Source: Lentisphaeria bacterium (lineage in GTDB: Bacteria > Verrucomicrobiota > Lentisphaeria > Oligosphaerales > Oligosphaeraceae). From it: a stretch of 64,000 bases of DNA. The notes under the pieces were generated by a model. The model searched no databases, had not been told where the DNA came from, and worked only from the letters and a program-made list of their open reading frames with translations. Position numbers and translations under genes: made by a program. Positions 1 through 16,534 of the stretch are shown here, one piece after another. The number at the start of each line of letters is the position of its first letter. The first letter of the stretch is position 1. Location: assembly GCA_016287975.1 (NCBI GenBank), contig JAEEXV010000170.1:1-64000 (forward strand). The letters are read 5' to 3'.

Positions 1-320
1 GAATCCGGAAGGCCAGCCGGCGGGCAAGCCCGCCGGCACACGCCGGGCAAATGCATGGCCCGGGAGAATCCGGAAACCCAGCCGGCGGGCAAGCCCGCCG
101 GCACACGCCGGGCAAATGCGGGGCCCGGGAAAATCCGGAAGGCCAGCCGGCGGGCAAGCCCGCCGGCACACGCCGGGCAAATGCGGGGCCCGGGAGAATC
201 CGGAAGGCCAGCCGGCGGGCAAGCCCGCCGGCACACGCCGGGTCAATGCATGGCCCGGGAAAATCCGGAAGACCAACCGGCGGGCAAATGCGGGCCCGGG
301 AAAATCCGGAAGGCCCGGCT
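1..320. repeat. Tandem repeat, 65-bp unit
   Basis: The unit start (AATCCGGAA) recurs at about 1, 66, 131, 196 and 261, an exact 65-bp period. A last copy at about 302 follows after 41 bp, so one unit carries a 24-bp internal deletion. Each unit contains the palindrome CCGGCGGGCAAGCCCGCCGG, which could fold into a hairpin. The array continues off the left edge of the window. Open reading frames across it are low-complexity and are not genes. There are no unique spacers, so it is not a CRISPR array. From 321 to 437 I see nothing more than the 3' flank of the minus-strand operon. Confidence 0.9.
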
Positions 321-437
321 GTTTATTCCCCCTGCGGGGCGGCAATAGGAATAGCCTGGCACAGAACCCCGCTGGAGGCGATGCCGCTGAATAGGGCGGC
401 ATCCGCATCCGGGGGGCGGGGATTGGCTAGTGCCGCG

Positions 438-1799
438 TTATGCGGACGTCGTTTCATTGAATTGGATGTCGGCTTGGACCAGGTAGTCCCGCTTGTCGTC
501 GCTGGCGCGCTGGCAGGCGTCGCGCATGCATTGTTCGAGTTCGCGGAAGTTTCCCTTGCACCCGTTGGCAAAGTGGTTCCATAGGCAGTCGAAGGCCTTT
601 TCCCCGACTTCCTGGATTTTGAAATCGGCGAAATCGCCATCCTGGAGGACGCAGTCGAGGATGTATTTGAAATTGTCCTTGCATCCGGCAAGGCGTTCCT
701 TCAGATTGGGAATGGGGAGCTGGTGATCGAAGCGATTGATGAGGTCGTTGCGGAATTCGACCGAGTTGCGGATTTTCTCGGTCTCGTTGCTGGCGGCGAC
801 GATGAGTGTGGGGCAGAAGATGGAATTGCCATTGAGGCCTCGGGGGCGGATCATGTAGTCGTCAAGGTAGGCGAGGAGCTTGCCTTGGATGATGGAATTG
901 GCGGCGCCGATTTCGTCGAGGAAGACGACCTGTCCGAGATTTCGCGCGAGGAGGCCGCAGTTGCCGTCCGCGGAACCGCCGGTGTAGGCGCCTTTGGCAT
1001 ATCCGAAGAGGTGGTATTCGAAGTCGTCTTCCTTTCGGTTGAATTCGGGGATGGGGATGCGCGGCGGATGGTGCTGGTCCTGCTTGGAACTCTTGAACAA
1101 AGGCTGGAGTTCGATGCGGATGCGTTCCTGGAGGTAATTGGCGATCAGCGTCTTGCCGACGCCGCTGTCGCCGAGGAGGAGGACCTTTGGCAGGCGGAGG
1201 ATGTCGGTTCCCTTGGAATCCATCTTAGCCTTGGGGTTTTTGACTTTTTCCTTGATTTTATCGCGGTAGGCTTCAAGGTCGCGTCCGCTCGGGAAGAGGC
1301 GACGGATTTGATCCGCGAAAATCTTGGCGATGCGCTGGAGCTGGAGGAGGAGTTTGCCCATGTGGGCGAAGACCGCGGTGGAATAGAGGTGGTTGGTGGA
1401 ATCGCGGCTGGTCGACTGGAACTTGACATAATCCTTGGTTTTCAAGGCGGGGTTCTCTCTTTCCGGGCACTGGTTCCATTTGACGCACTGTTCTTGGATC
1501 TGCGGAAAGACCTCTTCGGGGGACTCCTTGAAATGGAGATGCACGACTTCGGAGGCGCCTTGCTCGACGACGGTCTCGCTGACGTTCTTCAGTTCGTCGA
1601 CATCGATGGGGCGCTGGCAAAGCAGAAACACCTTTTCAAAATCTTTGCCTGCAAGAGGGAGGGATTCGTGGTCGCGGTCGAAGAGGCAGAGGAGGTGCAC
1701 CTTGAAGCGACTGACTTCGGGGATTTCAATGGCGGCGAGCTGGTCGTATTGTACTTTGTTGCCGTTGGTCAACACGTGGTCTTTGCCGATGGTCGTCAT
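438..1799 (-). CDS. Sigma-54-activator-type AAA+ ATPase, RtcR-like, no DNA-binding domain
   Basis: The 453-residue protein carries a bacterial enhancer-binding-protein type AAA+ domain: Walker A GDSGVGKT (about 210-217), a GAYTGG loop (about 270-275) where GAFTGA is usual, Walker B VVFLDEIG (about 291-298), arginine-finger region FRNDLINRFD (about 349-358) and sensor II GNFRELEQ (about 416-423). The family remodels sigma-54 RNA polymerase by ATP hydrolysis. The chain stops about 30 residues after sensor II, so the usual C-terminal Fis-type HTH is missing. Residues 30-160 have a Rossmann-like pattern with an FLLCQ strand and an LHFKESPEEVF stretch. These resemble the CARF region of RtcR, but this is only a by-eye match. 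The start ATG overlaps the stop of the upstream gene by 4 nt, so it is the third gene of the operon 2781-8024 / 1796-2767 / 438-1799. It could instead be a generic AAA+ chaperone, but the GAYTGG loop and the neighbours favour an activator. Confidence 0.85.
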   Translation of the reverse strand: MTTIGKDHVLTNGNKVQYDQLAAIEIPEVSRFKVHLLCLFDRDHESLPLAGKDFEKVFLLCQRPIDVDELKNVSETVVEQGASEVVHLHFKESPEEVFPQIQEQCVKWNQCPERENPALKTKDYVKFQSTSRDSTNHLYSTAVFAHMGKLLLQLQRIAKIFADQIRRLFPSGRDLEAYRDKIKEKVKNPKAKMDSKGTDILRLPKVLLLGDSGVGKTLIANYLQERIRIELQPLFKSSKQDQHHPPRIPIPEFNRKEDDFEYHLFGYAKGAYTGGSADGNCGLLARNLGQVVFLDEIGAANSIIQGKLLAYLDDYMIRPRGLNGNSIFCPTLIVAASNETEKIRNSVEFRNDLINRFDHQLPIPNLKERLAGCKDNFKYILDCVLQDGDFADFKIQEVGEKAFDCLWNHFANGCKGNFRELEQCMRDACQRASDDKRDYLVQADIQFNETTSA

Positions 1800-2767
1800 G
1801 GTAGAACTCCTGTTGCGTGCATTTGGGCGAGTTCGACGAGTTTGGAATTGTATGTGACTCCCGCAAGAGCGCAGTAGTCTTTCAGGGATTGCTCCAGGTT
1901 GGGGTCGTCGTCGTCAAGGCGTTCGGGGAGCGGCGCGCCGTATTCCAGGCACCGCCGGAGGCAGGCCTGGGCGGCCCAGGCGAGCTTTGCGTCTTTGCTG
2001 AAGAGAATCTTCTTCAGGTCGCATTGTCCGTCGTCCCAGACAAGCCGGACATGGGAGAGATAGCGCGCGAACGTCTCCGGGTTGGTTTTTGTGGGTAGCT
2101 TGTCCCACAGGAAAGTGCGTTTATCTTTTGTTTGTGTTGTTCCACCGGTATTGGCGATGACCGGGACGAAAGATTCTTTGCCTTCCACGTGGGCATTTGC
2201 GCCGAGGTCCCACGGATCGCCGGAGCAGAGGAATGCCTGGCGAGATTCTTCGAGCCACTGGGCGAGCGCTTTGAGGAGGCTATGCCGCCGATACAGGTAG
2301 TCGAGGATGTTTTTGCTTCGGGGGGTCTTGGGGGTGGCGGCAAGGCCGTCGATGCCGTTGAAACGGCAGGTGGCCTTGCCGTCGGCAATCCGGACGCGGA
2401 ATACGAAGTTGTCCGCTGTGCCATCCTGCGGCAGGTCATCGGGCTGGACGAGCGTGCCGTTGCCGTATACGGGCGTTGCCTCGTCGGAAGGGTCATCGAC
2501 ATCGAGGGCGTCTTCATCGTCCAGGGAGAGTTCGGGATCGTCTTCGCCGAGGGAATCGTCGAGGTCGTCGGGATCGACGTTGTCGGTGTCGGCATCGACC
2601 AGGGGGATGGGGATAATCTCCCCGTGTTTTTCGAGGTCTTGAAGGAGGTGCGCGATCTCCGAAGGGGATGCCTCGTTGCAGAGCGTCTGGTCGGCGCGAT
2701 TGATCGTGAGAGGTGCCTTGGTCGCGGCTGGTTCGGGGGCCTGAGTTTGGACGCGAGCGGTAGCCAT
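1796..2767 (-). CDS. Divergent sigma-54 (RpoN)-like factor
   Basis: This 323-residue protein shows the block order of sigma-54. A short N-terminal helical segment (about 34-50, EIAHLLQDLEKHGE) is followed by a very acidic stretch (about 57-98), as in RpoN regions I and II. Residues about 120-146 read like the RpoN segment PDVxV-xxxNGxWxVELN (here FVFRVRIADGKATCRFNG). Residues about 152-185 (YLYRRHSLLKALAQWLEESR) read like the core-binding helices around RxxTLLKVAxxIVERQ. The C-terminus (about 283-323) aligns with the end of RpoN: an acidic DDDDP patch, a helix, then KLVELAQMHATGVLP in place of the RpoN box and its GIPS tail. The RpoN box sequence itself (ARRTVAKYRE) is not conserved. The gene lies 13 bp after the polymerase gene and overlaps the AAA+ activator gene by 4 nt. 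Family assignment is inference from layout and short matches; a profile comparison would decide it. Confidence 0.55.
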   Translation of the reverse strand: MATARVQTQAPEPAATKAPLTINRADQTLCNEASPSEIAHLLQDLEKHGEIIPIPLVDADTDNVDPDDLDDSLGEDDPELSLDDEDALDVDDPSDEATPVYGNGTLVQPDDLPQDGTADNFVFRVRIADGKATCRFNGIDGLAATPKTPRSKNILDYLYRRHSLLKALAQWLEESRQAFLCSGDPWDLGANAHVEGKESFVPVIANTGGTTQTKDKRTFLWDKLPTKTNPETFARYLSHVRLVWDDGQCDLKKILFSKDAKLAWAAQACLRRCLEYGAPLPERLDDDDPNLEQSLKDYCALAGVTYNSKLVELAQMHATGVLP

Positions 2768-2780
2768 TTTTGGACGGGGG

Positions 2781-5700
2781 TTAGAAGTCGGCGAAGAAGA
2801 CGTGGGCGACGGGGGAATCGCGGCGAATGGGGATTTGGCTGGCGGCGGCCTCCAGGAGTTTCTGGCAGGTCTGGGTGTGTGCGATGGAGGTCAGCAGGTC
2901 GTGGTCGTCGTTGGCGGCGGCGGCGGAAGACAGGGTGCGCTTGTCGCTCTTGCTGATGACGCGCCAGAGCAGCCGGAAATAGGCGGGATTGAGTTTTTCG
3001 TAAGGGGAGCCGTCTTTTTGGAATTCCGTGCAGAAGTCGTCTTCCGCGGCGCTGTCCTTGCCATCTTGGCTTTTCAGTTCAAGCAGGGCTTTGACCCATT
3101 TGAGGTCGCAGGCGGTGGTGCCGGTGTGGAAGCTCTGCATGGAGAGCTGGGTGCCGCGTTCGCCGATGGACTGGGCGGCGACCAGGCCGATGGGGAAGAG
3201 GGCGTCGTCTTTGATGGCTTCGCGCAGTACGTCCTTTTCGTCCTTTTCGTCCTTTCCGTCCTTGAAGAGGTCCTCGGCAGGGCAGAGGATGGAGTTGTCG
3301 AGGATGGAGCGGATTTTGCCGCCATCGACGACATAAGGCCAGAGGGCGAAGACGAGGCGGCGGGTGATGGCGCCGGCCTGGGCGGTCCCCAGTTTTTTGT
3401 CGCAGAAGGAATGGCGGGCGTTCATCGCGGCGGAGAAGGAGTCGGAGGCGTTTAGCCCATCGCACAAGGTCCTTTTGAAAAATATGGGTTTGCCGTCGGG
3501 GCCGAAGGTCTGGAGATCGCCGCGGGCGGCGATGAGCTGCCGCAGCTGCTCGGGCTTGCCGCGGGCGCCGGAAGTGGACATGGCGGCGATATGGAGGCCT
3601 GGCGTCGCCCAGTCAACTTTTTCAGGTTTGCAGACTTCTTCCAAGTGCTTCTTGACCTTGTCCTCCAGGATCGAGTTGTCGTCTTCGGGGCATTTCTGCT
3701 TGGCGAGGTCTTTTTGCAGGCTGAGGCAGTCATAGAATCCGAAGGAGACTCCCGCGCGGGTGCAGGCTTCGAGAGCGAGGCGCATCCAGCGTGAGATGAT
3801 GGATATCGCCGAATCGCTGGGTTTGTTGCAGATTTTCGGGAGGAGCTCTTTATGTTCATCTTTCGAAGGCGTGGAGGATATGCCTGCACCTTGCAGTAGA
3901 TTTTGAAAGTCTTCGCAGAGGTCTTCGAGGCCGGAGGGCTTCGTGAGGAGCCAGTAGGTGCCCATGACGAAGTCCTGTTCGTAATGGGCGGTGGGTTTGC
4001 CATTGGCGAGGGAGAGGAGATTGTGGTCGGGGAGGAGGCGCCTGGCATCTTCCTGCGCCTCGGGCGAGAGGGGGAAGTGCAGGACCATTTCGTCGCCGTC
4101 GAAGTCGGCGCCGAAGTCTTTGCAGGCGAGAGGGGAGAGCTGGATGACCTCGGTGTCGCCGGGGATGGGGACGGGGTGGAAGGCGTGGAAACTGTAGCGG
4201 TGGAGGGAGGGCTGGCGGTTCAGGAGGACGAGGGTGTCGGGATGGTCTTCCAGGAAACGCGTGAGGAGCCGTTCCTGGCGGTCGGCGATTTCGGGGGTGC
4301 GTGGGGTGCGCCGATTCCATTTTGCCAGCTGTTCCAGCGCTTTTTGTTCCTGTGCCAACTGCTGGCTGGCGCGATCGGAGGTGATGGCGTCCTGCCCCTC
4401 CAGCCGTTCGCCGATGACGCCGATGCCGGCTGGCGGCGTATTGGATTGAAGGACTTGATCGCCCATCAGTTCCCAGAGGACTTGCACGGGGATGCCGGCT
4501 TGGTTCCAATTGAGTTCCGGATTGGGGGCGATGACCATTCGGGCGGAGCGGTCGACGCGGCGGCCGAGGCCATTGTAGCGCACGAAGCCGGTCTTCCCGT
4601 CGAGGAATTGCATGATGATCTGAAAGAGCCTCGTGACAGCTTTTTTCAGTTGTTCTTTTTTCTTTGGAGCGTTCTTTGAGTTGTCTTTTCCTTTCGTGTA
4701 TGCCTTGCAGGCTTCCAGGACGGGCAGATAACCATCCTGATCCAGCGTATCCAGGTTGATTCTATCGGGATGGATGGCGAGAGGGCGATGGCAGAGCGGG
4801 AGAACGGGGAGGATGGTGATTTCCGGGGCGCCTTTCGGGACGGTGAAGCCGTTCAGTTTTTCAGGATAGGGGATGGGGACGGGCAGTTCGATGAATCCCC
4901 ATTGGCTGCGGGATTTGGCGGATGTTTTTTGGACATCCCCGAAGATGGCGGGGTCGAAAAGCGAGTGCTTCGTGGGGGTGAGTGTCGAAGCGGCGCCTGC
5001 GCGGGCGTGGCCGCGCAGCTCCTGGCTTTGGTGCTTTTCGCAGACGACGGAAATTTCGCCGAGTTCGGCAGGCCTGGTCTTCAATTTATCCCACAGGGTT
5101 TGCGCGTTTCCGTTGTTCTTTCCTTCCTTCTTATCGCCTTTGAATGTGCGGCGGCAATGGATGACAATGTTGTCGGGCCAGCGGGCGGGCGGGGTGCCTT
5201 CGGGGGTGAGCGTCGCGTTGAAGAATTTCTTTTGGGGGTTGAAGTCTTGGGCTTCGAGGAGCAGCGTTCCGGCGGGGGCGCCGGTCGCGCAGTCTTGGAT
5301 GGGGAAGGCGAGGGAATGTTCGGAGCGCGGGGTGGCGTTTTCCGCCGAATATCCCCATGAGCGGAGGAGCCAGCCGAGTTTCAGGCTGGGGGTATCGTTC
5401 TTTTGGGCGTTGTCGAGGGGGACGCGGATTTTCTCGAAGTGCGTGCCGTCGCATTCTTCGTGCTGGCAGCGGAAGTCGAAGACAACGCTCTTGTCCAGGG
5501 ATTCCACCGAGGAGACCTGGTGGGTTTCGCCGCCAAGGAGATTCTTCAGAGCCTTTGGATCGCGGGAGAACTGGAGGTGGCCGTCCTTCCATTCGATGAG
5601 CAGGGCGCGGAGGTAGTCCCGGAGGAGTTCGGGGAATTTGGCGGGCGCTTGCGGGGCGGCGGCCTTGGGCCCGAGCATTTCATCGAGGATATGGTTGGCG

Positions 5701-8024
5701 TTGTAGGCGGCGAGGGCCCAGACCTCCATTTCGCCGAGGCGCTGGCCGCCGCCCAGGCGGCGGCCATGGATCGCCTGCCCCGTCTTGCTGCTGTAGAGAT
5801 AGGAATCGCCGCCGCGGCGGGCCTGCTCCTTCAGCATCGGGATGTGGGCGAGGCGGACGATGTGCTCGTAGCCGACCAGCACGGGGGAGAGGGTTTGCTT
5901 GCCGTCGGGCAGCGTCAGGCGGATTTTCCCGTAGCGGTCGAGGCCGGATTCTTCCAGAAGCTGCTGGATTTTATCGTGGTCGAGGCGGTCGATGTCGGGA
6001 TAGCCGCAGGGGCGCCGGTCGGACGGCGTGAGGAATTCGGCATCCCGGTGATTGTGGTGCAGAAGCCATGCCAGGTGGGTTTCGAGGAGCTGCCCCGGAT
6101 TCATTCGGGAGATGACGCCGTGCGGATTGAGCAGGATTTCAATGGGGCGGTTCCGCCATTCGCCCAGTTCGGCCGCATCCGGCAGGCGCGGCATCTGTTC
6201 GTCGGGGAGAATCTGTCCGACGACGCCCTTGTTGCCGTGGCGCCCCATCAGCTTGTCGCCGAGACGGAGCGGGATCTGGAACTCGACTTCATAGGTGAAG
6301 ACGCCGTCCATGTAAGGCTGCTTGCGCTGGAGGGCGATGGCGGCCACGAGACCCGGCGCGTCCTCCTCGTAGGAGACGGTGAAAGTTGTGCCGTCCTGGG
6401 TGCGGAATCTGGCGACGGGATCGCCGTGATGAAGAAGGGTGCCCTTGGGGACCATTCCTTCGACTAGATAGCCTGTACTGCAATCCTTGTCCAGTTCGAC
6501 GCCGACGGGGATGGTCCGTGTGAAGCGCCTGGTGGCCTGGTGTCCAATCCCCATTTTGTCGGCGGCGCTTTCGCTGATGACGATGGCGTCCTCCATGTTC
6601 CAGCCTTTCCAGGGGAGATAGGCGGTCAGCAGATCCACGCCGAGCTTGAGGGTGTCTCCGTCGTCGGGGAAGAGGCCAAGGCCTGCAAACGGTCGCATGA
6701 AGTCCGCCAGGGTCTTTTCGCCGCCGGAGAGGACGGCGGGGGCCTCGCGGGCTGCGACCGGGAGGGCCTGGCGCAGATTTTTGGCGCCCATCATATTTCG
6801 GGCGCCGTCGTTGTGCGGGTAGAAGGGGATGAGGCCAGCGCCCCAGCCCAGTTGCGCCAGCGGGTCATTTTCGGGGGCGGGGCGGATGAGTCCCTGGGCA
6901 TTGACGGTGGCGCCCTGTGCGAGCTGGAGGGCGAGGCCGACCCATTCGGACTCGGGGCTGTCCACGGGGCAGAGGCGGCCTTTGAACGACGGGTGGATCT
7001 GCCGGTAGGCCTCCGGAATGCTCTTGGCGGACTGTTGGGTGATGCGCAGGCGCTTCACATGGGTCAGGCGGGCCGCCAGTTCGAGGGCGTTCCGGGGCTC
7101 GACAAAGACCAGCCCGGCCTGCGAGGCATAGTGCGGGTTCTGGATGGGAATGAGGCTGTTTTGGAGGCGGGGGCGATCATGGGAGCGATCCTCCTGGAGG
7201 GCTTCCAGAAGTGCGTCGGGCCAGTAGCGGGCGTCCTTGGTCTGATCGCTGGCCATCTGGAAGAGCTGCCGTGCGAGCTGGAATTTGAGCCAGACGGGGA
7301 AGGTGATGAGGATGCGATGCTCCAGGTCGTCCAGGTCGGAGGCTCCTTTTTCCTCCTTTGGCAGGGAAGAAAGCAAGCCGAGCAAGTCTTTCCAGGTGTT
7401 CACCGTCTCCATCTTCACATCGGGATAGAGACCGGAGTTATTCTGGATGAACTCCTTGAGGAATGGGGGAATCTTCTTGGGCGTTCCTTTGCCGGCCTTT
7501 TGGGTGGACTTGCGGGAGCTTTCCTGTCCGGATTCAACGCTTGCGGTGGGTGTCCCTGTTTTTTTGCCGGCCTTCTGGGTGGACTTTAGGAAGCCGCCGC
7601 CTGGCAGGCCGAGGCGCCATTCCAATTTCTGGCGCTGCTGCTCGTTCTGGCCTTCCTGTTGTGGAAGTCGGACCAGACGGAGGCCCGGCATTTCATCCAG
7701 CCAGGAGTTCCAGACCATGATTAAAGGGCGTTGGCTGTTTTCCTTGTGGCGAACAAACAGCCCCTCATAGGGGAGGAGGATTTGATCCACGTCGAAGGAT
7801 TTGCCGAGGTCGTCGAATGTCAGGGTGATCTTGCCGTGTAGATCGGTGTTTTGGGCCAGCGCTTGGCGTGCGTCATCCTTGGTCGGCAGCGTGATGGCGC
7901 ATTGGATGGAAGTGTGCAGCAGGTCGGTCAGGAGGCGGCTGGCTTCCTGGTTCCATTCCGCCGTCATGGATTCGGAAAAGAAGAGCCAGTTTGCGCGGGA
8001 TTCGTCAGCGGAAGAGGTAGTCAT
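2781..8024 (-). CDS. Single-chain beta/beta-prime RNA polymerase (RpoB-RpoC-like fusion)
   Basis: The 1747-residue chain (from ATG at 8024; the open frame runs on upstream to 8354 but that part is low-complexity) contains both large RNA polymerase subunits in order. Beta motifs: HPSFKGRLCPVDSPE (about 344-358, rifampicin-pocket region), LIPFYPHNDGARNMMGA (about 398-414), GWNMEDAIVISE (about 474-485), GDKLMGRHGNKG (about 589-600), SRMNPGQLLETH (about 639-650), GGQRLGEMEVWAL (about 758-770). Beta-prime motifs: LFDPAIFG (about 1022-1029), LGRRVDRSARMVI (about 1153-1165), GADFDGDEM (about 1305-1313, three Mg-binding Asp), the bridge-helix region TSGARGKPEQLRQL (about 1484-1497) and the trigger loop IGERGTQLSMQSFHTG (about 1620-1635). 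All active-site parts are kept, so it should be catalytic. It is far shorter than beta plus beta-prime of bacteria (about 2700). The N-terminal lobes are reduced, the beta-prime zinc ribbon is absent, and residues about 790-1000 are a novel linker. No alpha or omega gene is nearby. First gene of a three-gene operon. Confidence 0.95.
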   Translation of the reverse strand: MTTSSADESRANWLFFSESMTAEWNQEASRLLTDLLHTSIQCAITLPTKDDARQALAQNTDLHGKITLTFDDLGKSFDVDQILLPYEGLFVRHKENSQRPLIMVWNSWLDEMPGLRLVRLPQQEGQNEQQRQKLEWRLGLPGGGFLKSTQKAGKKTGTPTASVESGQESSRKSTQKAGKGTPKKIPPFLKEFIQNNSGLYPDVKMETVNTWKDLLGLLSSLPKEEKGASDLDDLEHRILITFPVWLKFQLARQLFQMASDQTKDARYWPDALLEALQEDRSHDRPRLQNSLIPIQNPHYASQAGLVFVEPRNALELAARLTHVKRLRITQQSAKSIPEAYRQIHPSFKGRLCPVDSPESEWVGLALQLAQGATVNAQGLIRPAPENDPLAQLGWGAGLIPFYPHNDGARNMMGAKNLRQALPVAAREAPAVLSGGEKTLADFMRPFAGLGLFPDDGDTLKLGVDLLTAYLPWKGWNMEDAIVISESAADKMGIGHQATRRFTRTIPVGVELDKDCSTGYLVEGMVPKGTLLHHGDPVARFRTQDGTTFTVSYEEDAPGLVAAIALQRKQPYMDGVFTYEVEFQIPLRLGDKLMGRHGNKGVVGQILPDEQMPRLPDAAELGEWRNRPIEILLNPHGVISRMNPGQLLETHLAWLLHHNHRDAEFLTPSDRRPCGYPDIDRLDHDKIQQLLEESGLDRYGKIRLTLPDGKQTLSPVLVGYEHIVRLAHIPMLKEQARRGGDSYLYSSKTGQAIHGRRLGGGQRLGEMEVWALAAYNANHILDEMLGPKAAAPQAPAKFPELLRDYLRALLIEWKDGHLQFSRDPKALKNLLGGETHQVSSVESLDKSVVFDFRCQHEECDGTHFEKIRVPLDNAQKNDTPSLKLGWLLRSWGYSAENATPRSEHSLAFPIQDCATGAPAGTLLLEAQDFNPQKKFFNATLTPEGTPPARWPDNIVIHCRRTFKGDKKEGKNNGNAQTLWDKLKTRPAELGEISVVCEKHQSQELRGHARAGAASTLTPTKHSLFDPAIFGDVQKTSAKSRSQWGFIELPVPIPYPEKLNGFTVPKGAPEITILPVLPLCHRPLAIHPDRINLDTLDQDGYLPVLEACKAYTKGKDNSKNAPKKKEQLKKAVTRLFQIIMQFLDGKTGFVRYNGLGRRVDRSARMVIAPNPELNWNQAGIPVQVLWELMGDQVLQSNTPPAGIGVIGERLEGQDAITSDRASQQLAQEQKALEQLAKWNRRTPRTPEIADRQERLLTRFLEDHPDTLVLLNRQPSLHRYSFHAFHPVPIPGDTEVIQLSPLACKDFGADFDGDEMVLHFPLSPEAQEDARRLLPDHNLLSLANGKPTAHYEQDFVMGTYWLLTKPSGLEDLCEDFQNLLQGAGISSTPSKDEHKELLPKICNKPSDSAISIISRWMRLALEACTRAGVSFGFYDCLSLQKDLAKQKCPEDDNSILEDKVKKHLEEVCKPEKVDWATPGLHIAAMSTSGARGKPEQLRQLIAARGDLQTFGPDGKPIFFKRTLCDGLNASDSFSAAMNARHSFCDKKLGTAQAGAITRRLVFALWPYVVDGGKIRSILDNSILCPAEDLFKDGKDEKDEKDVLREAIKDDALFPIGLVAAQSIGERGTQLSMQSFHTGTTACDLKWVKALLELKSQDGKDSAAEDDFCTEFQKDGSPYEKLNPAYFRLLWRVISKSDKRTLSSAAAANDDHDLLTSIAHTQTCQKLLEAAASQIPIRRDSPVAHVFFADF

Positions 8025-8595
8025 AATGGGAGAACGTTGATAGAAAGGACGATGCCGGTTGCCGCCACGCCAGAAAGACCTACGCAGGGGGGACGGAAGA
8101 CAATCCGGCACAAAATATAACACAGGAAAAACGTCTTGCCGTATGATGGCGACGCGCCATCCTTCATGTGGCAAATGGCATAGAGGCATTCGCCGCCTTG
8201 TGGCTGGCGCCCGCCTCATGCCTTTGTCGTCTGGTTCTCTCTTCTGGTCGTGCCGGCTTGGCGGGCTGACCACATGCGCCCAGGCAAAAGGGCATCCCGG
8301 AAGGCAGCGCTTTCCCCGTCGGGGCGGAAAAGCGGATGGTCGCTTGTAAAACAACTGGATGAATGTAGATTAAAGGCCATTACGCAGTTGCCGAATGCCT
8401 TGTTCCCCAAGTTGTGCAGGTGGTGGAGAAACGGGCGAAGTCAGGAGACGCGAGACGGGTTCATTTGTTGACCCCCCATGGCCGATCTGCGTGGGGAACA
8501 GAGCGCCGCCAAAATTGGGGACTGCTTCCTGTTTTTGGGGCATTTGGCGCACGCGAATCGAGGCACCTGGCATTTTGCAACCGTTGGAACTCGTC
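8025..8595. promoter_or_regulatory. Divergent intergenic region between polymerase operon and DHH gene
   Basis: This 571-bp region separates two divergent operons. On the minus strand, upstream of the polymerase start, there is an AT-rich patch at about 8108-8125 (TGTTATATTTTG on the minus strand) that could be a -10 element. No clear Shine-Dalgarno sequence precedes the ATG at 8024. On the plus strand there is a TGTTCCCCAAG motif at 8401-8411 that recurs between other modules (16734, 27625, 38812). I see no gene here. The reading frames across it are extensions of the flanking genes without coding character. Confidence 0.4.
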
Positions 8596-9612
8596 ATGGA
8601 TCCTTCTCAGCCTGCCGGTCAAATTGATTCATCGCTGCAAGGAAAGCTGGAGGCTCTGATATTGTCCAGCAGCCATATTGTGGTCACAGGGCACAAGTTT
8701 CCTGACGGCGATGCCGTCGGCGCGGCATTGGCATTGCGGCGGCTGCTCTTGAATCAAGGGAAACATGTGGACGTGCTTCTATGCAAGTCCCATGTCGGGA
8801 CGCCGCGGGTGCTAGAGGATTTTGACCGAATCATTGATCTTCAAGAGTATGATTTTACGAATGAACCGGACTTGTTCATTTGCCTTGACTGTGCGGAGCC
8901 ATCGCGCATTTGCGATGACCGGCTGCGGCATTGGATTGGCAGGGTCCCCACGGTGGATATCGATCATCACGGCAAGATCTTGTTCGGTGATGTGAACTAT
9001 GTGGTAAAGGACTATTCCAGCACCGGCGAGCTTGTTTTCAATCTTGCGAAATGCTTCGGATGGCGGTTGGATCGGCAAACGGCAGAGGCCTTGTGGGTTT
9101 CAATCGCCACAGACACGAACCGGTTTTCAAGGGGAATTCAACCGTCGACATTCATGTGCGCCGCGGAATTGCTTTCGTTGGGAATCCGTGCCACATGGCT
9201 GAATGACGAGCTTTTCCTGCAGGAACCCGCCAATGTGTTCGCGCTGCGGAAACGTGCGATCAACTCACTTGAGCTTTGGCGCGAAGGCATTGTCGCCGCC
9301 ATCTCTTTGACCCCGGAGGACTTTGCCGAGACCCAATGTGCCAAGCAGGACACGGAGGACTTCCCGAATATTCCCCTGTCCATAAGAGGGGCGAAAATCG
9401 CCGTTTTCATCTATCCCCTGCCGGCGGGCGGGGATGAAATCAGGATCAGCCTGCGGAGCCGCCAGGGCGCGCCCGTCACGGCACGACAAATCGCGGAACA
9501 TTTTGGCGGGGCAGGACACGAGCATTCAGCGGGTGCAGTCTTTGTCGGGACGGTCGAGGCTTGTAAAAAGGCGGTGCGTTCATTCATAGAAAAGGGAAAC
9601 TTCCATGAATAG
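8596..9612 (+). CDS. DHH-DHHA1 family phosphoesterase (NrnA-like)
   Basis: The 338-residue protein has the DHH-family signature: THGKFPDGDAVG-type motif I (here GHKFPDGDAVG, about 32-42), CLDCAEPS, and the DIDHH motif (about 122-126). The C-terminal DHHA1 substrate-binding domain carries FGGAGHEHSAG near residue 308. NrnA-type enzymes degrade short oligoribonucleotides, 3'-phosphoadenosine-5'-phosphate and some linear dinucleotides with Mn2+. I chose ATG 8596 because homology starts about 25 residues later and the upstream extension (from 8395) has no coding character. Its end overlaps the start of the next gene (9605), so the two are probably co-translated. Turnover of a nucleotide signal handled by the Csx3-like neighbour is a reasonable inference. 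Confidence 0.85.
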   Translation: MDPSQPAGQIDSSLQGKLEALILSSSHIVVTGHKFPDGDAVGAALALRRLLLNQGKHVDVLLCKSHVGTPRVLEDFDRIIDLQEYDFTNEPDLFICLDCAEPSRICDDRLRHWIGRVPTVDIDHHGKILFGDVNYVVKDYSSTGELVFNLAKCFGWRLDRQTAEALWVSIATDTNRFSRGIQPSTFMCAAELLSLGIRATWLNDELFLQEPANVFALRKRAINSLELWREGIVAAISLTPEDFAETQCAKQDTEDFPNIPLSIRGAKIAVFIYPLPAGGDEIRISLRSRQGAPVTARQIAEHFGGAGHEHSAGAVFVGTVEACKKAVRSFIEKGNFHE

Positions 9613-12295
9613 CGATGTGATTCCAAACGCCGTCCTTCCCGGGCGCAGATTTTTCCTCATGGAAGAGGCGGTCGAAGGACTGTCCATCGACCTGACGGGC
9701 GCGGGCGGCTTTCAAATGCCAGAAGACGCCTACAGTCAGATATTTGACCTCCGCGAAACGGTCGCTGGACGGGATGTCATTCTCACCGGAATCGGGGCGC
9801 GGCCGGTTCATTTTGCGCTTGGATACTACCTGACTCTCTTTGGCGCGCGCGCCATCACATGCAGGAGTGGAGGACCGCATCATTCTTCATTCTCCATCAA
9901 GCGGGCAGATGAGCGTGCGTGCCAGCGGAAGAGGTGGTATGCCTTTTCTTCAGACGGTCCGTTGGATGTGCTCCATGTCGCCGCCAATGCTCCCGATGGA
10001 GAATGGGACGTGGATGAGGCTGCCGATCTTGAAGTCCCCGGGGAAATGCCGTCGCCGCAACACCCAGACAGGCCATTGTGCATTTCCGGCGCTGGCGGCT
10101 CTTTCGGATACGCCGCCTTGGGCGTCTATGCCGCCCTGGCCGGAAAAAACGACATCCGCCTGAAGCAGGAATCCGGCCCGCTTGAATATGTTTTTTCGCC
10201 GGAATTCGCGGGGTCGTTCAATCCTGAGGCTGGTTCCAGGAATGGTTTTGTCGTGGGGATACTTGGAGACCCAGGCAGCGGGAAGTCCGTTTTTTCAAAA
10301 TCATTCGGCAAATGCCTGAGCGGTTTGTTTCCGAACTGGTGCAGAATCTGGGCATGCGGTTGGGAGGCCGGCGCCAAGGATGCCCCCACGCGCGGAAATG
10401 GTCTCCGGAAACGCAAGGGGGATGTCGGGACGGCGGAGCGCATCATTCGGACTATGCAGAGGCTGAAACAGAGCCAGGATATTGCCATCGTCGATCTGCC
10501 CGCCGAAAGCCATCCTGGCGGGGAGGTATTTCCCCGGCCGCCCCTCATGCCAAAGGACGGCGATTGCCCGGAAATGTTGAAAGCCTGCGATGCGTTCATC
10601 ATAGTCTACCGCAAGGACAGACCAGAATCATTGGAAGCCTGGCGTGATGCCTTGTCGGCATTTGGCCTGGCCGGCAAAGTGGTTGCCGGCTTTGCTTCCA
10701 CAACCCCCGGCGGACCGGTTCGTATTTCAGGGGTCTCGCGGAATGCGTCCGGGATGTTTCAGGCGGAAATCGCAGGACTGGCTTGCCGGCAGGAGCAATC
10801 TCGTCTGGTCTTTGAAATGAAGGAGAACCTGGCGGATTTCTGCCGGTTCATTTCCTATCACAACGTCATTGCCGCGGCAAGAGCCGGGGTGGTCAAGTCT
10901 TTCCTGACAGGCGTCAAAGGAACGAGATACGGGGCGGCGGCAAGGTCCGCGGCAACCGGTCGCATTTTTTCGGCTGGCCAGTATTCTTCCTATAACCATT
11001 CAACGAATATACATGCGGAAATGGGGGCGCTGTATCAGGCGACAATGGCCGGCGAACCGGATGTCGATGTGTTGTGTGTCGCCTGTTCCAATGAAGAATC
11101 GGCGATTCCCTGCGGCGTATGCCGGCAGGTGATGATAGAGCATAGCCAGCGTACGCATCGTGATTTTGATGTGGTTCTGACGACGCCGCGGGGTGAAACC
11201 AAGATCATGAAGGTGTCCGAACTACTTCCAGAGGCGTGGAGCGCGGTCAGGCAAACCAGTGGTTCTGGCAATGCAAGGGTCTTGAAACTCAGTGACGCCC
11301 TGTTTGATGATTCACACTGCATGACCGGCGGCTATTGCCTGGATTTAAACCTCCAGGGCAGGAAAGCGTTGGATTTGGTCTGGGACGGGAGATTTATGCA
11401 GGGCTGCATGCTTGTCAAGAGGAAATATGAGTGGCAAGGGGATGATGCGTGGGTGAAGATTCCCCACGCTTTCACAGAGGCGGCAAAATACCAGAAATAC
11501 TTGATTGACAATGCGCTTAATTCCGCCTTGTTTCCGGAGGACGCCATTCTGGGCACGACGGGAGGAGTCCGCTTCAAGAATCCCGAACGGGTGTCTCCCG
11601 TTTTCCTGCCTGAGGCCCTGATCGGACCGCTGAATGAACTTGTCTTCTTGCCTGCCGGCCTTGACGTGCAACGGAATGCGTATATAACCAATTCAAGGCT
11701 CCTGAATCTTCACCGTCCGGATTCCGACTACGACTTGCTGGTGACGGGCTTGCCGGAGGAAATCCAAAAACTGCGCGAACGACTGTCATTGAACTTACGG
11801 CGTGGCGTTTTCAAGGTCTCCAGTAAATCGGGAAGCTGGAAATGCATCAAAGAGGCATTTCCCGGTGGAACCGACGACGGCGGCGGCAAGATCATTTCCG
11901 AATGCCGCTACTGCGAAACATTTCTGTTTCAGGACATCCAGATCTCGCTGATGTATTCGCCGGATCCCGAAAGCCAGCCGTTGGCCTTCAACCGCGATGC
12001 CTCGCTGCATGGAAGAATCCAGGTCAGCGGAGTCATTGCCGCCGCGGATTCAGCCTGCTACAAGCGCTCCGAATGCTGGATCGCCGCAGAGGACGGCACG
12101 ACATACCGGGTGCTTTGCTACCACAAGATCGGGAATATGCTGAAGAACGGTGACCGGGTCGCCATCGGCGGATACCTCGTGGTCGACTCCCCTGCGGTGC
12201 AAGAGACCCGCCCGGGCATCGAATCCAGGCAGGAGCCGAGACGCACGATCCTGCTGTCGTCTTTTTTCACGGACAAGATCGTTTGGTTCAAATGA
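9605..12295 (+). CDS. Five-domain fusion: Csx3-like, P-loop NTPase, cytidine deaminase, nucleotidyltransferase-like, OB-like
   Basis: 896 residues. Residues about 25-90 (DVILTGIGARPVHFALGYY) and again about 140-195 (LCISGAGGSFGYAALGVYA) resemble the Csx3/Crn3 ring-nuclease fold, in which a ISGRGPxWLxxAL strand-helix is typical. A P-loop GDPGSGKS follows at 221-228, as in known Csx3-AAA fusions. Residues about 420-540 are a cytidine-deaminase domain with HAE at 470-472 and PCGVC at 502-506, the zinc site and catalytic Glu. Residues about 690-785 carry a nucleotidyltransferase pattern: NS, then SDYD at 707-710, and a third acid in DIQI at 777-780. Residues about 800-870 look OB-like. Expected activities are cyclic-oligoadenylate binding or cleavage, nucleotide deamination and NMP transfer, but the combined reaction is unknown. 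ATG 9605 follows AAAGGGA and overlaps the DHH gene by 8 nt. Confidence 0.75.
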   Translation: MNSDVIPNAVLPGRRFFLMEEAVEGLSIDLTGAGGFQMPEDAYSQIFDLRETVAGRDVILTGIGARPVHFALGYYLTLFGARAITCRSGGPHHSSFSIKRADERACQRKRWYAFSSDGPLDVLHVAANAPDGEWDVDEAADLEVPGEMPSPQHPDRPLCISGAGGSFGYAALGVYAALAGKNDIRLKQESGPLEYVFSPEFAGSFNPEAGSRNGFVVGILGDPGSGKSVFSKSFGKCLSGLFPNWCRIWACGWEAGAKDAPTRGNGLRKRKGDVGTAERIIRTMQRLKQSQDIAIVDLPAESHPGGEVFPRPPLMPKDGDCPEMLKACDAFIIVYRKDRPESLEAWRDALSAFGLAGKVVAGFASTTPGGPVRISGVSRNASGMFQAEIAGLACRQEQSRLVFEMKENLADFCRFISYHNVIAAARAGVVKSFLTGVKGTRYGAAARSAATGRIFSAGQYSSYNHSTNIHAEMGALYQATMAGEPDVDVLCVACSNEESAIPCGVCRQVMIEHSQRTHRDFDVVLTTPRGETKIMKVSELLPEAWSAVRQTSGSGNARVLKLSDALFDDSHCMTGGYCLDLNLQGRKALDLVWDGRFMQGCMLVKRKYEWQGDDAWVKIPHAFTEAAKYQKYLIDNALNSALFPEDAILGTTGGVRFKNPERVSPVFLPEALIGPLNELVFLPAGLDVQRNAYITNSRLLNLHRPDSDYDLLVTGLPEEIQKLRERLSLNLRRGVFKVSSKSGSWKCIKEAFPGGTDDGGGKIISECRYCETFLFQDIQISLMYSPDPESQPLAFNRDASLHGRIQVSGVIAAADSACYKRSECWIAAEDGTTYRVLCYHKIGNMLKNGDRVAIGGYLVVDSPAVQETRPGIESRQEPRRTILLSSFFTDKIVWFK

Positions 12296-12321
12296 TATCT
12301 TAATACTCGGTTTTCCCATAC

Positions 12322-12346
12322 GGGGCGGCGATTGCCGCCCCTCTTT
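12322..12346 (+). terminator. Hairpin terminator after the deaminase fusion gene
   Basis: A perfect 8-bp GC stem, GGGGCGGC / GCCGCCCC with a GATT loop, lies 27 bp after the stop codon and is followed by TCTTT. The T run is short, so intrinsic termination may be partial. It separates the DHH/Csx3-deaminase pair from the vWA-kinase genes. Confidence 0.6.
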
Positions 12347-12390
12347 GGGAACATTGCGTCCAGAAAAATATGCGAATTTGGGCGCGGGAG

Positions 12391-12430
12391 CCGGAAAATG
12401 GCGGGGATGCGCGCTTAAAGGAGGTGATGA
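12391..12430 (+). promoter_or_regulatory. Leader block A: bipartite motif plus extended Shine-Dalgarno
   Basis: CCGGAAAA at 12391 and CTTA at 12414 lie 23 nt apart. The same pair with the same spacing is found at 27945 and 30784. It is followed by AAAGGAGGTGAT (12417-12428), a perfect complement to the conserved 3' end of 16S rRNA. A tiny frame (ATG 12438, eight codons) lies between this site and the real start at 12466 and ends two bases before it, so coupling is possible. Whether the bipartite part is a promoter is inference. Confidence 0.45.
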
Positions 12431-12465
12431 CAGTTCCATGGCACACCAACCCTCAGGAGAATGAA

Positions 12466-13629
12466 ATGAATACCGAAGCAGAGATCTACGAAGCCGAAAA
12501 CGGATCCGCCCTCATTTGCCGGAATGACATGCCGCATTGCGCGGTGGTGCTGGTGCTGGACACCTCGCACAGCATGTGGGGCAAGGGCCTCCGCGACCTG
12601 AAGCAGTCGCTGCGGGTCTTCCAGCAGACCTTGATCGACACGAGTTTTGCGCAGGCGGAATTGGATTTGGCGGCGATCAGCATGGGCGAAAATCTTGGCG
12701 TGCTGGAAGAGTTCACGCCGTTCCGCGAATCCCGGCTCGCCTCGCTTGCCATCCGCCCCAAGGGCGACACCCCGATCGGCGCCGCCCTCTCCCTGGCACT
12801 GCAGATGCTTGCCGCGCAGAGCGAACAATATCGCCAGGCAGGGCGGCGCCAAGTCACTCCGCAACTGATTCTGCTTTCCGACGGCAAGGATTCCTCCGAC
12901 GACTACACGGCGGTCGCCGCCGACATCCGGAACGCCTGTGCCGCGGGCAAGCTGGTCTGCCACGCGATTGCGCTGGGCGATTCCCCAGACTGCGATGCAC
13001 TGCGCCGGATCGCGGGCACGCAGATCGTCTTTCCGCAGCGCGGCGCCCTCTGCGACGCTTTTGCCGAGGTCGGGCAGACCATCTCCCAGACCTATGAAGC
13101 GGAGGCCAGCGAGACACCGGCCCCCGCCGCCCCCGCGCCAATGGCGCCGGCGGCGTCCGATGGCGTGACCGAGTATCTGCTGGACGGCTCCAACATCCTG
13201 TATTGGGATCGTTTCGGGAGCGGCATCACCCTGCGCTATGTCCTGGGCCTCGCGGATTACCTGGAGCGCCAGGGGTTGCGCTACCGCGTCTTCTTCGACG
13301 CCACCGCGCGCCATATCCTCGCCAAGCGGGACGCCGCGGAGGCGGCGCAGTACGAGGCGCTGCTTCGCGGGCGCCCGGAGCACTTCCTGCAGGTGCCTGC
13401 GGGGACGGCCGCCGACGCGGTGCTGCTGCATCTCGCGGACACGCAACCGGGCAGCGTGATCATTTCCAACGACCTCTTCCGCGACCACGCCGAGCAGTAT
13501 CCGTGGCTCCATGAGAAAACGCAGCGGATCATCTCCGGCATGGTGCTCCAGGATGCCATCTTCTTCCCCTCGATTTCCCTGCAGATTCCAGTGGGGTCGC
13601 CGGAAAACCGCGCGGAGGCGTCCTTATAG
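12466..13629 (+). CDS. vWA domain fused to NYN/PIN-like ribonuclease domain
   Basis: 387 residues. The N-terminal half is a von Willebrand A domain with MIDAS DTSHS (about 32-36), a conserved Thr in KGDTPIG and the ILLSDGKDS strand, as in TerY/YegL-type proteins. An Ala/Pro linker (about 208-222) leads to a C-terminal domain (about 225-387) starting YLLDGSNIL and containing VIISNDLFRDH and YPWL. This matches the Zc3h12a/NYN ribonuclease pattern (DGSN near the start, SNDxxRD later), with acids suited to metal binding. Start ATG 12466 has AGGAG seven bases upstream; longer in-frame starts lack homology. The next gene, a protein kinase, starts 54 bp later, so vWA and kinase likely work together, with the nuclease as effector. 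The NYN call rests on motif reading. Confidence 0.75.
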   Translation: MNTEAEIYEAENGSALICRNDMPHCAVVLVLDTSHSMWGKGLRDLKQSLRVFQQTLIDTSFAQAELDLAAISMGENLGVLEEFTPFRESRLASLAIRPKGDTPIGAALSLALQMLAAQSEQYRQAGRRQVTPQLILLSDGKDSSDDYTAVAADIRNACAAGKLVCHAIALGDSPDCDALRRIAGTQIVFPQRGALCDAFAEVGQTISQTYEAEASETPAPAAPAPMAPAASDGVTEYLLDGSNILYWDRFGSGITLRYVLGLADYLERQGLRYRVFFDATARHILAKRDAAEAAQYEALLRGRPEHFLQVPAGTAADAVLLHLADTQPGSVIISNDLFRDHAEQYPWLHEKTQRIISGMVLQDAIFFPSISLQIPVGSPENRAEASL

Positions 13630-13683
13630 GGAGTGAACCGAACGAAACCATCCCACCATCACCCATCATAGGAGATCATCATT

Positions 13684-14874
13684 ATGACGAGCATCTTTTC
13701 CTCCTTCATGAACATCTTCCGCACCACCTCCCCCGTTGCGCCGTCTCCCGTCCCGCAGTCGTTCCCACAGTTCACGCCCGCGCCGTCGTATGCCCCCCGT
13801 GGCGGGTGGCTGGACGCCGTCGAGGATGCGAGCGTCGCCACGGCCGGCCGGTTCACTCTCTACGATCCCAGCGGCAACCCCGTGCAGTTCGATCCGGACA
13901 GCGCCAAGGGGGCGGGCGGCGAAGGCACTGTCTATGAAGTCCCGAAATATCCCAAGTTCCTGGTGAAGGTCTTCAAGGAGGAAATCCTTCGGGATCCCCG
14001 CAAGGCGGCCCAGCTGCGGCGGCGCATCGAGGACATGGTCGCGCTGGAGGCCTGTGCGCAGATGGACTTCCTGGCGTGGCCGAAGATGAGCGTCTTCGAT
14101 GAGCGGAAGCGCCTGGTCGGCTTCGTCATGAAGAAGTGCACGGGCGCTTCCTTCCTCACCCTGCGCGGGCCGAAGTTCATCCAGATGCGCTTCCCCGGCT
14201 GGACGCGCCGCAATCTCGCCTTGACCGCCCTCGACTTCATCAAGAAGGTGCGGCTGCTGGCCTCGCGGCAGGTCTTCATCAACGACTTCAACCCCGCGAA
14301 CTTCCTGGTCTCGCCCGACGGGAAAGTCTCCTTCATCGACTGCGACAGCTACCAGATTCCCGGCGCACAGGGCGCGAACATCACACGCACCTATTTCCCC
14401 TCGCACGTCGCGCCGGAGCTGCTGCGGAACAAACGCCTGCTGGACGCCCCGCGCGGCATCCACCAGGTCGAATTCGGCGCCGCCCTCACCGTCTTCAATC
14501 TCCTGATGTGCGGCATGCATCCCTACAACTTCTGCGACCCCGTGCATCATGCCAACTGCGGCACCCCCGACGAGAACCTCCTCAACGGGCGCTGCCCCCT
14601 GGGCACGGGCGCGGGCTGCCTGCTCCCCAAGGGCGGATGGTACAACATGTGGAGCTGGCTGACCTACCGGCTCAAGGACGCCTTCATCCGGATGTTCAAG
14701 GACGGCCACGCCAACCCCAATGCGCGTCCCTCCCTCGAAGAACTCGCGAGCGCCGTCGAGGAACTGCTCGTCGTGATGAAAAAGGATCCGCAGCGCCAAG
14801 CCCTCGTCCCGACCACTGCTAAGCCCCCGGAGCGCAAGAGCGGCGGGACGGGCGGCGGCCGCATTGCCGGATAG
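13684..14874 (+). CDS. YegI-like protein kinase
   Basis: 396 residues. After a Pro/Ser-rich N-terminus the kinase core has a glycine-rich loop GGEGTVYEV (about 78-86), the ATP-anchoring Lys in LVKVFK, a catalytic loop INDFNPANFLV (about 198-208) in place of HRDLKPxN, and the metal-binding FIDCDSYQI (about 216-224) in place of DFG. The IDCDS form is characteristic of the YegI/TerY-associated kinase family. Serine/threonine kinase activity is expected because the catalytic Asp, Asn and second Asp are present. Typical relatives sit beside a vWA protein and a PP2C phosphatase. Here the vWA gene is directly upstream, while the phosphatase is 14 kb away in a second cluster. AGGAG lies about 10 bases before the ATG. 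Confidence 0.85.
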   Translation: MTSIFSSFMNIFRTTSPVAPSPVPQSFPQFTPAPSYAPRGGWLDAVEDASVATAGRFTLYDPSGNPVQFDPDSAKGAGGEGTVYEVPKYPKFLVKVFKEEILRDPRKAAQLRRRIEDMVALEACAQMDFLAWPKMSVFDERKRLVGFVMKKCTGASFLTLRGPKFIQMRFPGWTRRNLALTALDFIKKVRLLASRQVFINDFNPANFLVSPDGKVSFIDCDSYQIPGAQGANITRTYFPSHVAPELLRNKRLLDAPRGIHQVEFGAALTVFNLLMCGMHPYNFCDPVHHANCGTPDENLLNGRCPLGTGAGCLLPKGGWYNMWSWLTYRLKDAFIRMFKDGHANPNARPSLEELASAVEELLVVMKKDPQRQALVPTTAKPPERKSGGTGGGRIAG

Positions 14875-15016
14875 CCGGCTGGCCCGGCGGGCCGGATTTA
14901 TTGCCTTCCTCCCGCCGGCTCAATTGGGACGTGCTGAGCCGAGTGACCTACCGCTATTATATTACGAAAGCGTGGTGCGCGGAGGGGGTAGGAAGGCCCA
15001 GATCCGTGGAATCATT

Positions 15017-16534
15017 ATGAATCAAAGTAAAGCAACCGTCTTCGTCGCCTCCATTGGGTTGGGGGACTACATTCCCACTACCTACACGGATGGGAAGCAG
15101 TCAATCCAGGCGAAATTCGTCCAGAACGCGATTCGCAAGATCTTTGCGCCCGACGCACCCGCCTTCATTTTTGCGACGGGAAAGGCATTGGATACGTTTT
15201 TCCCTAAGGATCGCAGCCGGTGCTCTCCTCTTCCACGTCAGAAGAAGGCGAAGGCCCATGCGGAGGAGGATCCGCTGTTTCAGCTCTATCGCCAGAATTT
15301 CTACCAGGAGTGCGAGCGGTTGAAACTGGCTCCCCCGGTGACCATTGAAATCAAGGATGGCAAAAATATGCAGGAACTATGGGAGATTTTCGACGTGCTT
15401 TGTGAAAACATCGAGGAAAATGCGAAAATCTGTTTTGACCCCACTCACGCCTTTCGCCATCATCCCCTCATCATGACGATTCTTTTCAACTATCTGCACG
15501 TGGTCAAGAAGACCGAGGTCGTGCATTGTGAATACGGCGCTTTCGAGGCGAACAAGAAGGGGAGATTTCTCAGGCATCACATTGACAGTTTGCTGGAACC
15601 GGACACCTCAGACTCATCCTCCCAGATAGTTTCTGATCAAGAGGTGGACTGTTCTCCGCTTTTCCCGCTCACGGAGTTCTATCGGCTCAACGACTGGACC
15701 AATGCGATCCACGACTTCCTGGAATACGGCCGGACCAATGCCTTGAAGCATCTGGTGGAAGGGCATTCCAGAGGGATTGACGGCCAGGATGAAACGCTCC
15801 GCTTTGTCAATGCCCTGGATCGACTGGCAGACTATGCGCTCGTCTCCAATTTGCATGCAATTGAACAGTTGGACTACCAGAATGAGATTCTGAACCCCCT
15901 TCACAATATCAATCATTCCATAAAGCAAAGCAACTATTTGCCGCAGCTGATGCCGCTTTTCGTGCAGGTGGAGATGCTGCTCAATCAATTTCAATTCTGT
16001 CCAACCCCATCGTGGAAGAACGGTTTTGCCATGGCGCGATGGTGCGGCGAATTCAAATTGTATCCCCAGCTCTATACCATTCTTCAGGAGACCTGCTTTT
16101 CCGCCGGAGTGGACCTTTTCCTGAATCCCGAGCATGGCATTTGTTCGGAAACAGCGCTAAAAGAGGCGGGGCTGGCCGAAGGAACTGCCCAGAGAACGCA
16201 ACGGGAGAGAAGAGATTTCATCTCGGTTTTACTGGGCATAGAGAGCAACACAGTTTACCAGCATCCAGAGCAATTATACTACCCGTTGGTTCCCAAAAAG
16301 AAAGATGATAACATGCAAAGCCAGCGGATACATTTGGGAGAAATCATCATGAGCAATGCCGGTTTTGCCCAGATTCGCGACGCATACGGAAAAGTCAAGG
16401 CAATCCGGAACTCCATCAACCATGGTTTTACTGGTGGACAAATCGAGTCGTGCGCCATCCAAGAAAAGGCAGACGAATTGATCAGTAGTCTTGCCACGTT
16501 ATTCCTGTCGCTTGCGGGCACACATGGCGAATGA
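15017..16534 (+). CDS. Csx1/TM1812-type CARF-HEPN ribonuclease
   Basis: 505 residues from ATG 15017 (the frame upstream to 14864 is not conserved-looking). The N-terminal Rossmann domain opens with TVFVASIGLGDYIPTTY and carries the family signature CFDPTHAFRHHP (about 139-150), matching the DxTHGFRxxP motif of TM1812/Csx1 CARF proteins. This is followed by a FYRLNDWTNAIHDFLEYG helix typical of that group. The C-terminal HEPN domain has the RNase motif R-x4-H in RNSINH (about 464-469). Such proteins are activated by cyclic oligoadenylate and cut RNA in type III CRISPR immunity. No Cas10, Cas7 or CRISPR array is present within the window, so the activating signal must come from elsewhere or from a non-CRISPR source. 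The Csx3-like protein upstream supports a cyclic-nucleotide pathway. Confidence 0.85.
   Translation: MNQSKATVFVASIGLGDYIPTTYTDGKQSIQAKFVQNAIRKIFAPDAPAFIFATGKALDTFFPKDRSRCSPLPRQKKAKAHAEEDPLFQLYRQNFYQECERLKLAPPVTIEIKDGKNMQELWEIFDVLCENIEENAKICFDPTHAFRHHPLIMTILFNYLHVVKKTEVVHCEYGAFEANKKGRFLRHHIDSLLEPDTSDSSSQIVSDQEVDCSPLFPLTEFYRLNDWTNAIHDFLEYGRTNALKHLVEGHSRGIDGQDETLRFVNALDRLADYALVSNLHAIEQLDYQNEILNPLHNINHSIKQSNYLPQLMPLFVQVEMLLNQFQFCPTPSWKNGFAMARWCGEFKLYPQLYTILQETCFSAGVDLFLNPEHGICSETALKEAGLAEGTAQRTQRERRDFISVLLGIESNTVYQHPEQLYYPLVPKKKDDNMQSQRIHLGEIIMSNAGFAQIRDAYGKVKAIRNSINHGFTGGQIESCAIQEKADELISSLATLFLSLAGTHGE

Follow-up and report, generated by a model that had tools for sequence, protein, structure and literature searches.

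Here we describe a three-gene operon located at the left end of a 64,000-nucleotide stretch of contig JAEEXV010000170.1 of a Lentisphaeria bacterium (assembly GCA_016287975.1; "the window" hereafter means this whole stretch). The operon probably encodes a transcription machine of the sigma-54 type that is private, ATP-gated and distinct from the housekeeping polymerase. Its genes, tightly arranged on the minus strand (positions 438-8024), code for a single-chain beta/beta-prime RNA polymerase, a small middle protein that is likely a minimal sigma-54-like factor, and an AAA+ ATPase of the sigma-54-activator type (Table 1). The middle and AAA+ genes overlap by 4 nucleotides, while a 13-nucleotide gap separates the polymerase and middle genes. 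The polymerase frame is open to position 8354, with the N-termini of relatives favouring the ATG at 8024, and the third-position guanine-cytosine (GC) content is raised, as in coding frames, for all three genes. A preliminary description of this DNA had placed the three genes at the same coordinates and had noted the lack of an alpha or omega subunit nearby. Both observations were borne out, the latter by a Pfam scan of 34 open reading frames (ORFs) of the window, which revealed no alpha or omega families.

Judging by its sequence, the first gene product is a multisubunit-type RNA polymerase that has kept the catalytic motifs, and is therefore predicted to synthesize RNA. Within one chain it matches the Pfam families Rpb2_6 (6e-36), Rpb1_2 (5e-26), Rpb1_5, Rpb2_3 and Rpb2_7, and more weakly Rpb1_4, with the beta domains (Rpb2_3, 6, 7) preceding the beta-prime domains (Rpb1_2, 5). 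NCBIfam names no family for this protein (top score 274 bits versus a cut-off of 5,372). A protein search scored at least 7,997 candidates and returned 3,182 matches at E <= 1e-10, presumably including housekeeping subunits; the family figures given here rest on the best 120 of these, the first being the window's own copy. The remaining 119 relatives (E 5.5e-260 or better) share 34-46% identity with the window polymerase over 45-100% of its length (best local alignment), and are 1,558-2,015 residues long among the matches listed, except for the partial P0078 (1,059 residues). The organism is named for six of the listed matches, five of them Kiritimatiellae or Verrucomicrobia/Verrucomicrobiota and one only "bacterium".

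The family alignment comprised 37 sequences, i.e. the window copy and 36 of the best 119 relatives. In the trigger loop the pattern GE[PR]GTQL was found in 34 of them and GERGTQL in most, whereas the canonical GEPGTQL did not occur in any. Three signatures of the host enzymes could not be detected by pattern in any of the 37 family members: the flap-tip motif, which 59 of 71 host beta subunits have, and the clamp-helix and first zinc motifs, which occur in 71 and 68, respectively, of 74 host beta-prime subunits. It is well known that the flap-tip and clamp-helix motifs are docking sites for sigma-70-type factors. A tree was built from 36 family members (35 from the alignment and the homologue from genome G039, introduced below), together with one phage sequence and 30 host beta-prime sequences out of 70 available; in it, the family formed a single clade (support 1.0) on a long branch. 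On this sequence evidence, the polymerase belongs to a separate deep clade.

The trio also occurs outside the window. Among 68 genomes searched, all from a phylum that we infer to be Hydrogenedentota, one, G039, contained a family member. On its contig L156, the polymerase is represented by its beta-prime half, which runs to the contig end, and is followed by homologues of the middle gene and of the AAA+ gene, in the same order and strand as in the window and with overlapping frames; the AAA+ gene overlaps the middle gene at both loci. Identities to the window proteins are 42% for the polymerase (over residues 928-1743), 31% for the middle protein (E 3e-24) and 40% for the AAA+ protein. In the last ~130 bases of L156, a run of prolines gives way to residues that look like translated sequencing adapter, and the cut in the polymerase is therefore probably an assembly artefact. 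A profile built from the two middle proteins retrieved seven proteins at E <= 1, namely these two and a further five that closely resemble the G039 protein. For two of the five, an equal length of the longest contig indicates that they share a contig with a polymerase of the family (P0125 with P0020, 46,808 for both; P0124 with P0052, 17,147 for both). Since the window and G039 lie on opposite sides of the deepest split in the family tree, the trio probably dates back to the base of the sampled family. In addition, G039 encodes a canonical sigma-54 and a second polymerase (one open frame of 2,681 codons), presumably the housekeeping enzyme; the trio is thus an addition in this genome, and, because its other polymerase is also a single open frame, beta/beta-prime fusion in itself is not unusual. 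The remaining genome searches were negative (0/18, 0/237, 0/145, 0/35, 0/5, 0/296, 0/297, 0/377 and 0/400, versus the sole positive of 1/68, with some centre genomes counted twice in these denominators), although the zeros of 237, 145, 296, 297, 377 and 400 are soft, because two to three candidates were scored per genome in the rows shown.

The third gene product is, by sequence, a member of the sigma-54-activator clade. The Pfam family Sigma54_activat was matched by the window protein (E 3.5e-20) and by its L156 homologue (E 7.7e-27). A profile of these two sequences gave 38 matches in the PDB: 34 to NifA, NtrC-family proteins, PspF, FleQ, LuxO and similar, which we take to be sigma-54 activators, and four to ClpC, Clp or FtsH. 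Both proteins have in common Walker A, FLDEIG (Walker B), FRxDLxxR and GNFR[EQ]LE, and at the GAFTGA position the homologue has the loop GAYTDS. No helix-turn-helix (HTH) family was found by Pfam after the AAA+ part, and both proteins stop shortly past the lid; a C-terminal Fis-type HTH is usual, but not universal, in bacterial enhancer-binding proteins (bEBPs). The N-terminal 200 residues gave no convincing match in the PDB (best E 0.44). The preliminary description had proposed both a single-chain polymerase with an intact active centre and a sigma-54-activator ATPase. The first proposal is upheld by DFDGD in all 37 family members, RHGNKG in 36, and a bridge helix and trigger loop aligned in register with those of host enzymes, and the second by the Pfam and NifA/NtrC-family matches.

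The middle protein is the component whose assignment, as a likely minimal sigma-54-like factor, leans on structural modelling. It has no Pfam match, even the window and L156 proteins taken together hit no family at E <= 10, and it matched nothing in any library searched; against PDB sequences, the profile of the middle family gave just two matches, both to pICln (E 0.52 and 0.75). In one of two AlphaFold models, however, the 18 best match rows were sigma-54 chains, and counterparts of the extended linear helix and of the HTH segment of sigma-54 can be proposed (Table 1). A weak feature in common with sigma-54 is an acidic (D/E-rich) stretch at residues ~58-96, following an N-terminal region of predicted helices (residues 24-47). 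When the single HTH block was scored, P0122 and P0125 were reached by none of 1,500 background proteins, the other four relatives by 0.3-7.3% and the window protein by 4.7%. With three ordered blocks and 1,505 background proteins, the corresponding values were 0.07% for P0122, 0.13% for P0127, 0.9% for P0126, 1.9% for P0123, 2.1% for P0125, 3.9% for the window protein (whose HTH block was misplaced, out of register) and 16.5% for P0124. These scores are weak support only, because the blocks were picked after viewing the alignments. Proof of a sigma-54 identity from sequence was sought and abandoned, with comparison of the middle family to sigma-54 by HHalign and HMMER (--max) at chance and the block scores weak.

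Besides this chance-level comparison, several results weigh against a sigma-54-like middle protein. The second AlphaFold model, led by P0122, gave no sigma-54 rows; both models are of low confidence (mean predicted local distance difference test score ~44); an RpoN box (ARRTVAKYR type) is not visible in the alignment of the middle proteins, and the RpoN-box scores of the family were equalled by 9-77% of the 1,500 background proteins. The missing box, the want of a significant profile match and the second model are equally what would be expected if the middle protein served the accessory polymerase as an adaptor or a regulator, with the AAA+ protein acting on the host sigma-54 holoenzyme, for instance in expressing the operon; canonical sigma-54, the usual bEBP partner, is indeed present in G039. 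We consider this arrangement unlikely in view of the gene overlap that ties the AAA+ gene to the middle gene at both loci, the fact that no HTH was seen that could bring the AAA+ protein to host promoters, and the sigma-54 matches of the first model; moreover, a polymerase without sigma-70 docking motifs would need some other specificity factor. The sigma-54 layout ascribed to the middle protein in the preliminary description is thus upheld by one model and not by the other, nor by the RpoN box or the profile tests. That description had named, as jointly telling against it, a middle protein unlike RpoN and no recurrence of the trio; the trio does recur, in the one Hydrogenedentota-group genome, and the likeness to RpoN is left likely, though unproven.

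A different origin of the operon was considered in the light of searches in viruses and plasmids. The polymerase could be a domesticated phage-type single-chain enzyme, akin to YonO or to those of jumbo phages; the operon would then be what is left of a mobile element, or its cargo. According to a passage of PMC5467207, phages do carry such polymerases. Eight viral contigs (L095, L096, L089, L102, L112, L100, L099 and L127) contain single ORFs of ~1,900-2,950 residues with both polymerase halves (352-397 bits); from their sequences, these are probably phage fused polymerases, far from the clade of the window polymerase. Partial PHROG matches (best, 1.2e-49 to a beta-like and 8e-46 to a beta-prime-like phage family) and the patchy spread, with 1 of 68 genomes in the sole group with a match, also fit a phage origin. 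Nevertheless, no relatives were found in IMG/VR viral contigs scanned with two family-specific motifs, and viral loci score far below the family, in which the 37 members used to build the model all reach at least 1,801 bits: the best ORF of the 73 loci of a broader viral scan reached 397 bits, while 219 bits were obtained for locus L140, whose segment identity (52%) is the highest, and 226 bits for locus L001 (26% identity). Taking into account also the distinct clade, though in a tree with just one phage sequence, a phage origin appears very unlikely. In plasmids, 66 records had partial polymerase matches (30 listed), all below 60% identity and none covering 80% of the query, and the middle protein had no matches. 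In a scan of genome contigs, the best 80 of 593 matches look like housekeeping polymerases, with ribosomal genes behind the one in L038.

In the sigma-54-type machine that we favour, the polymerase core would not use the host sigma-70, because the two docking signatures are gone. The middle protein would bind this core and keep it closed at promoters of its own, while the AAA+ protein would sense a signal via its divergent N-terminal domain and form a ring, whose GAYTG loop would open the promoter by remodelling the middle protein, as might be expected from its family. Since no HTH was seen, the AAA+ protein would work from solution or through binding of a partner. The defence-type genes nearby may be considered candidate targets. 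Sigma-54 consensus promoters are fewer in the window (24) than expected by chance, which says little either way, because the sequence recognized by a private factor may differ. In window positions 1-9000, both sigma-70-type promoters and terminators occurred at chance level, and a search for repeats upstream of the polymerase gene gave nothing convincing.

Table 1. Features of the operon and of its neighbourhood (positions in the window)
Feature	Position	Strand	Remarks
Single-chain beta/beta-prime RNA polymerase	2781..8024	-	1,747 residues; one ORF with above-cut-off matches to Pfam Rpb2_3/6/7 and Rpb1_2/5
Beta catalytic motif GDKLMGRHGNKGV	6222..6260	-	residues 589-601; most positions invariant
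Catalytic Mg motif ADFDGDE	4089..4109	-	residues 1306-1312; invariant in 37-sequence alignment
Bridge-helix segment GARGKPEQLRQLIAARG	3519..3569	-	residues 1486-1502; aligned to canonical beta-prime; strict GARG pattern in 27/37
Trigger loop QSIGERGTQLSMQSFHTG	3120..3173	-	residues 1618-1635; GER in place of canonical GEP
Middle gene, likely minimal sigma-54-like factor	1796..2767	-	323 residues
Long predicted helix, candidate counterpart of sigma-54 extended linear helix	2225..2323	-	residues 149-181 (33 residues); in both models; low confidence
Candidate counterpart of sigma-54 HTH segment	1997..2083	-	residues 229-257; local alignments of window copy and four relatives
Sigma-54-activator-type AAA+ ATPase	438..1799	-	453 residues; own N-terminal domain; Pfam Sigma54_activat; top-scoring PDB matches to NifA and NtrC-family activators
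Walker A GDSGVGKT	1149..1172	-	AAA+ residues 210-217; GETGVGKT in L156 homologue
GAFTGA-type loop, GAYTGG	975..992	-	AAA+ residues 270-275; aligned to GAFTGA of NifA and NtrC1 chains
896-residue protein	9605-12295	+	cytidine-deaminase part and weakly P-loop kinase-like part; nucleotidyltransferase-like stretch by eye
vWA domain fused to Zc3h12a-type NYN RNase domain	12370-13629	+	
Csx1/Csm6-type CARF-HEPN protein	14864-16534	+	PADLOC 2.4e-60

Facing the trio in the window is a row of divergently oriented genes, which encode an NrnA-like DHH protein, a kinase/deaminase fusion, the vWA-NYN RNase, a weakly kinase-like protein and the Csx1/Csm6-type CARF-HEPN protein. PADLOC, applied to 15 ORFs of the window, gave no other Cas-type matches but those to CARF-AAA-HTH (RtcR) models. 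The neighbours in G039 match the models PglW, PDC-S02 and PglX, a BREX/Pgl-type set. Such defence-type neighbours at both loci suggest a role of the trio in immunity or stress. They would also suit a scheme in which the polymerase is an effector, licensed by the other two proteins, that makes RNA or DNA upon infection independently of promoters; we find this highly improbable, as a bEBP-type ATPase and absent sigma-70 docking motifs would fit regulated initiation better. If the trio is a transcription machine, as we prefer to think, it might provide a second complete transcription system for immunity, in which a phage-proof single-chain polymerase, guided by a minimal sigma-54-type factor of its own and by an AAA+ activator acting as sensor, expresses defence genes when an invader disables or hijacks the host polymerase. 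We put forward this extension tentatively and regard it as rather doubtful. Only the three genes are counted here as the system, because the neighbours differ and two loci prove no defence role.

Further features of the window were recorded. Just downstream of the operon, a tandem repeat (positions 1-287; 4.4 copies of a 65-bp unit) is cut by the window edge. The GC content shifts near position 28000, from 56.1% (8025-28000) to 65.9% (28001-64000), the trio region having 61%; this shift, by the first of two transfer-messenger RNA (tmRNA)-like elements, is a possible island boundary. The two elements (27994-28074 and 30831-30912, plus strand; 60.4 and 55 bits to RF00023), located near a vWA/PP2C/DnaJ gene set, are tRNA domains of ~81 nucleotides without an mRNA-like part, and ARAGORN reports no tmRNA for them.

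In the textbook view, sigma factors are exchanged on a single RNA polymerase core in bacteria. This one-core rule would be broken, if confirmed, by a second core that has a dedicated specificity factor and an ATP-driven activator. Such a system would also offer a minimal three-protein form of sigma-54 transcription, amenable to purification and structure solution, and could serve engineering as an orthogonal transcription system; a tie to defence would make it a new way of keeping immune genes on while phages attack the host polymerase. The preliminary description knew of no system with such a set, and our searches of the open-access PMC literature likewise brought up no description of one. 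Even without sigma-54 kinship of the middle protein, no paper listed by these searches described a conserved operon that pairs an accessory polymerase with a bEBP-type ATPase.

Among known systems, RtcR, the CARF-AAA+-HTH activator of RNA repair, gave the best NCBIfam and the sole PADLOC matches of the operon's AAA+ part. The likeness is limited to this part: the N-terminus (residues 1-200), where RtcR has its CARF domain, gave no convincing match, although a divergent domain could be missed, and an HTH was not seen. Jumbo-phage RNA polymerases are private enzymes related to the multisubunit RNA polymerases. So is the phage enzyme YonO (~100 kDa), whose promoter needs are left open in the passage of PMC5467207 that describes it. 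Unlike these, the family of the operon polymerase was not met in viral contigs by its two motifs. Transcription by sigma-54 (RpoN) resembles the proposed machine in its three roles and in its AAA+ protein, which belongs to the same family and likewise has Walker A and a GA[FY]T loop. It differs in that the core is here a private single chain, no C-terminal HTH was seen in the AAA+ protein, and the canonical sigma-54 proteins compared have open frames of 408-641 codons, as opposed to a middle protein of 323 residues without an RpoN box or Pfam match. Finally, the housekeeping bacterial RNA polymerases, including natural beta/beta-prime fusions, have the same catalytic core motifs, whereas the operon polymerase stands in its separate deep clade, lacks the flap-tip, clamp-helix and first zinc motifs, and, in G039, occurs besides another polymerase.
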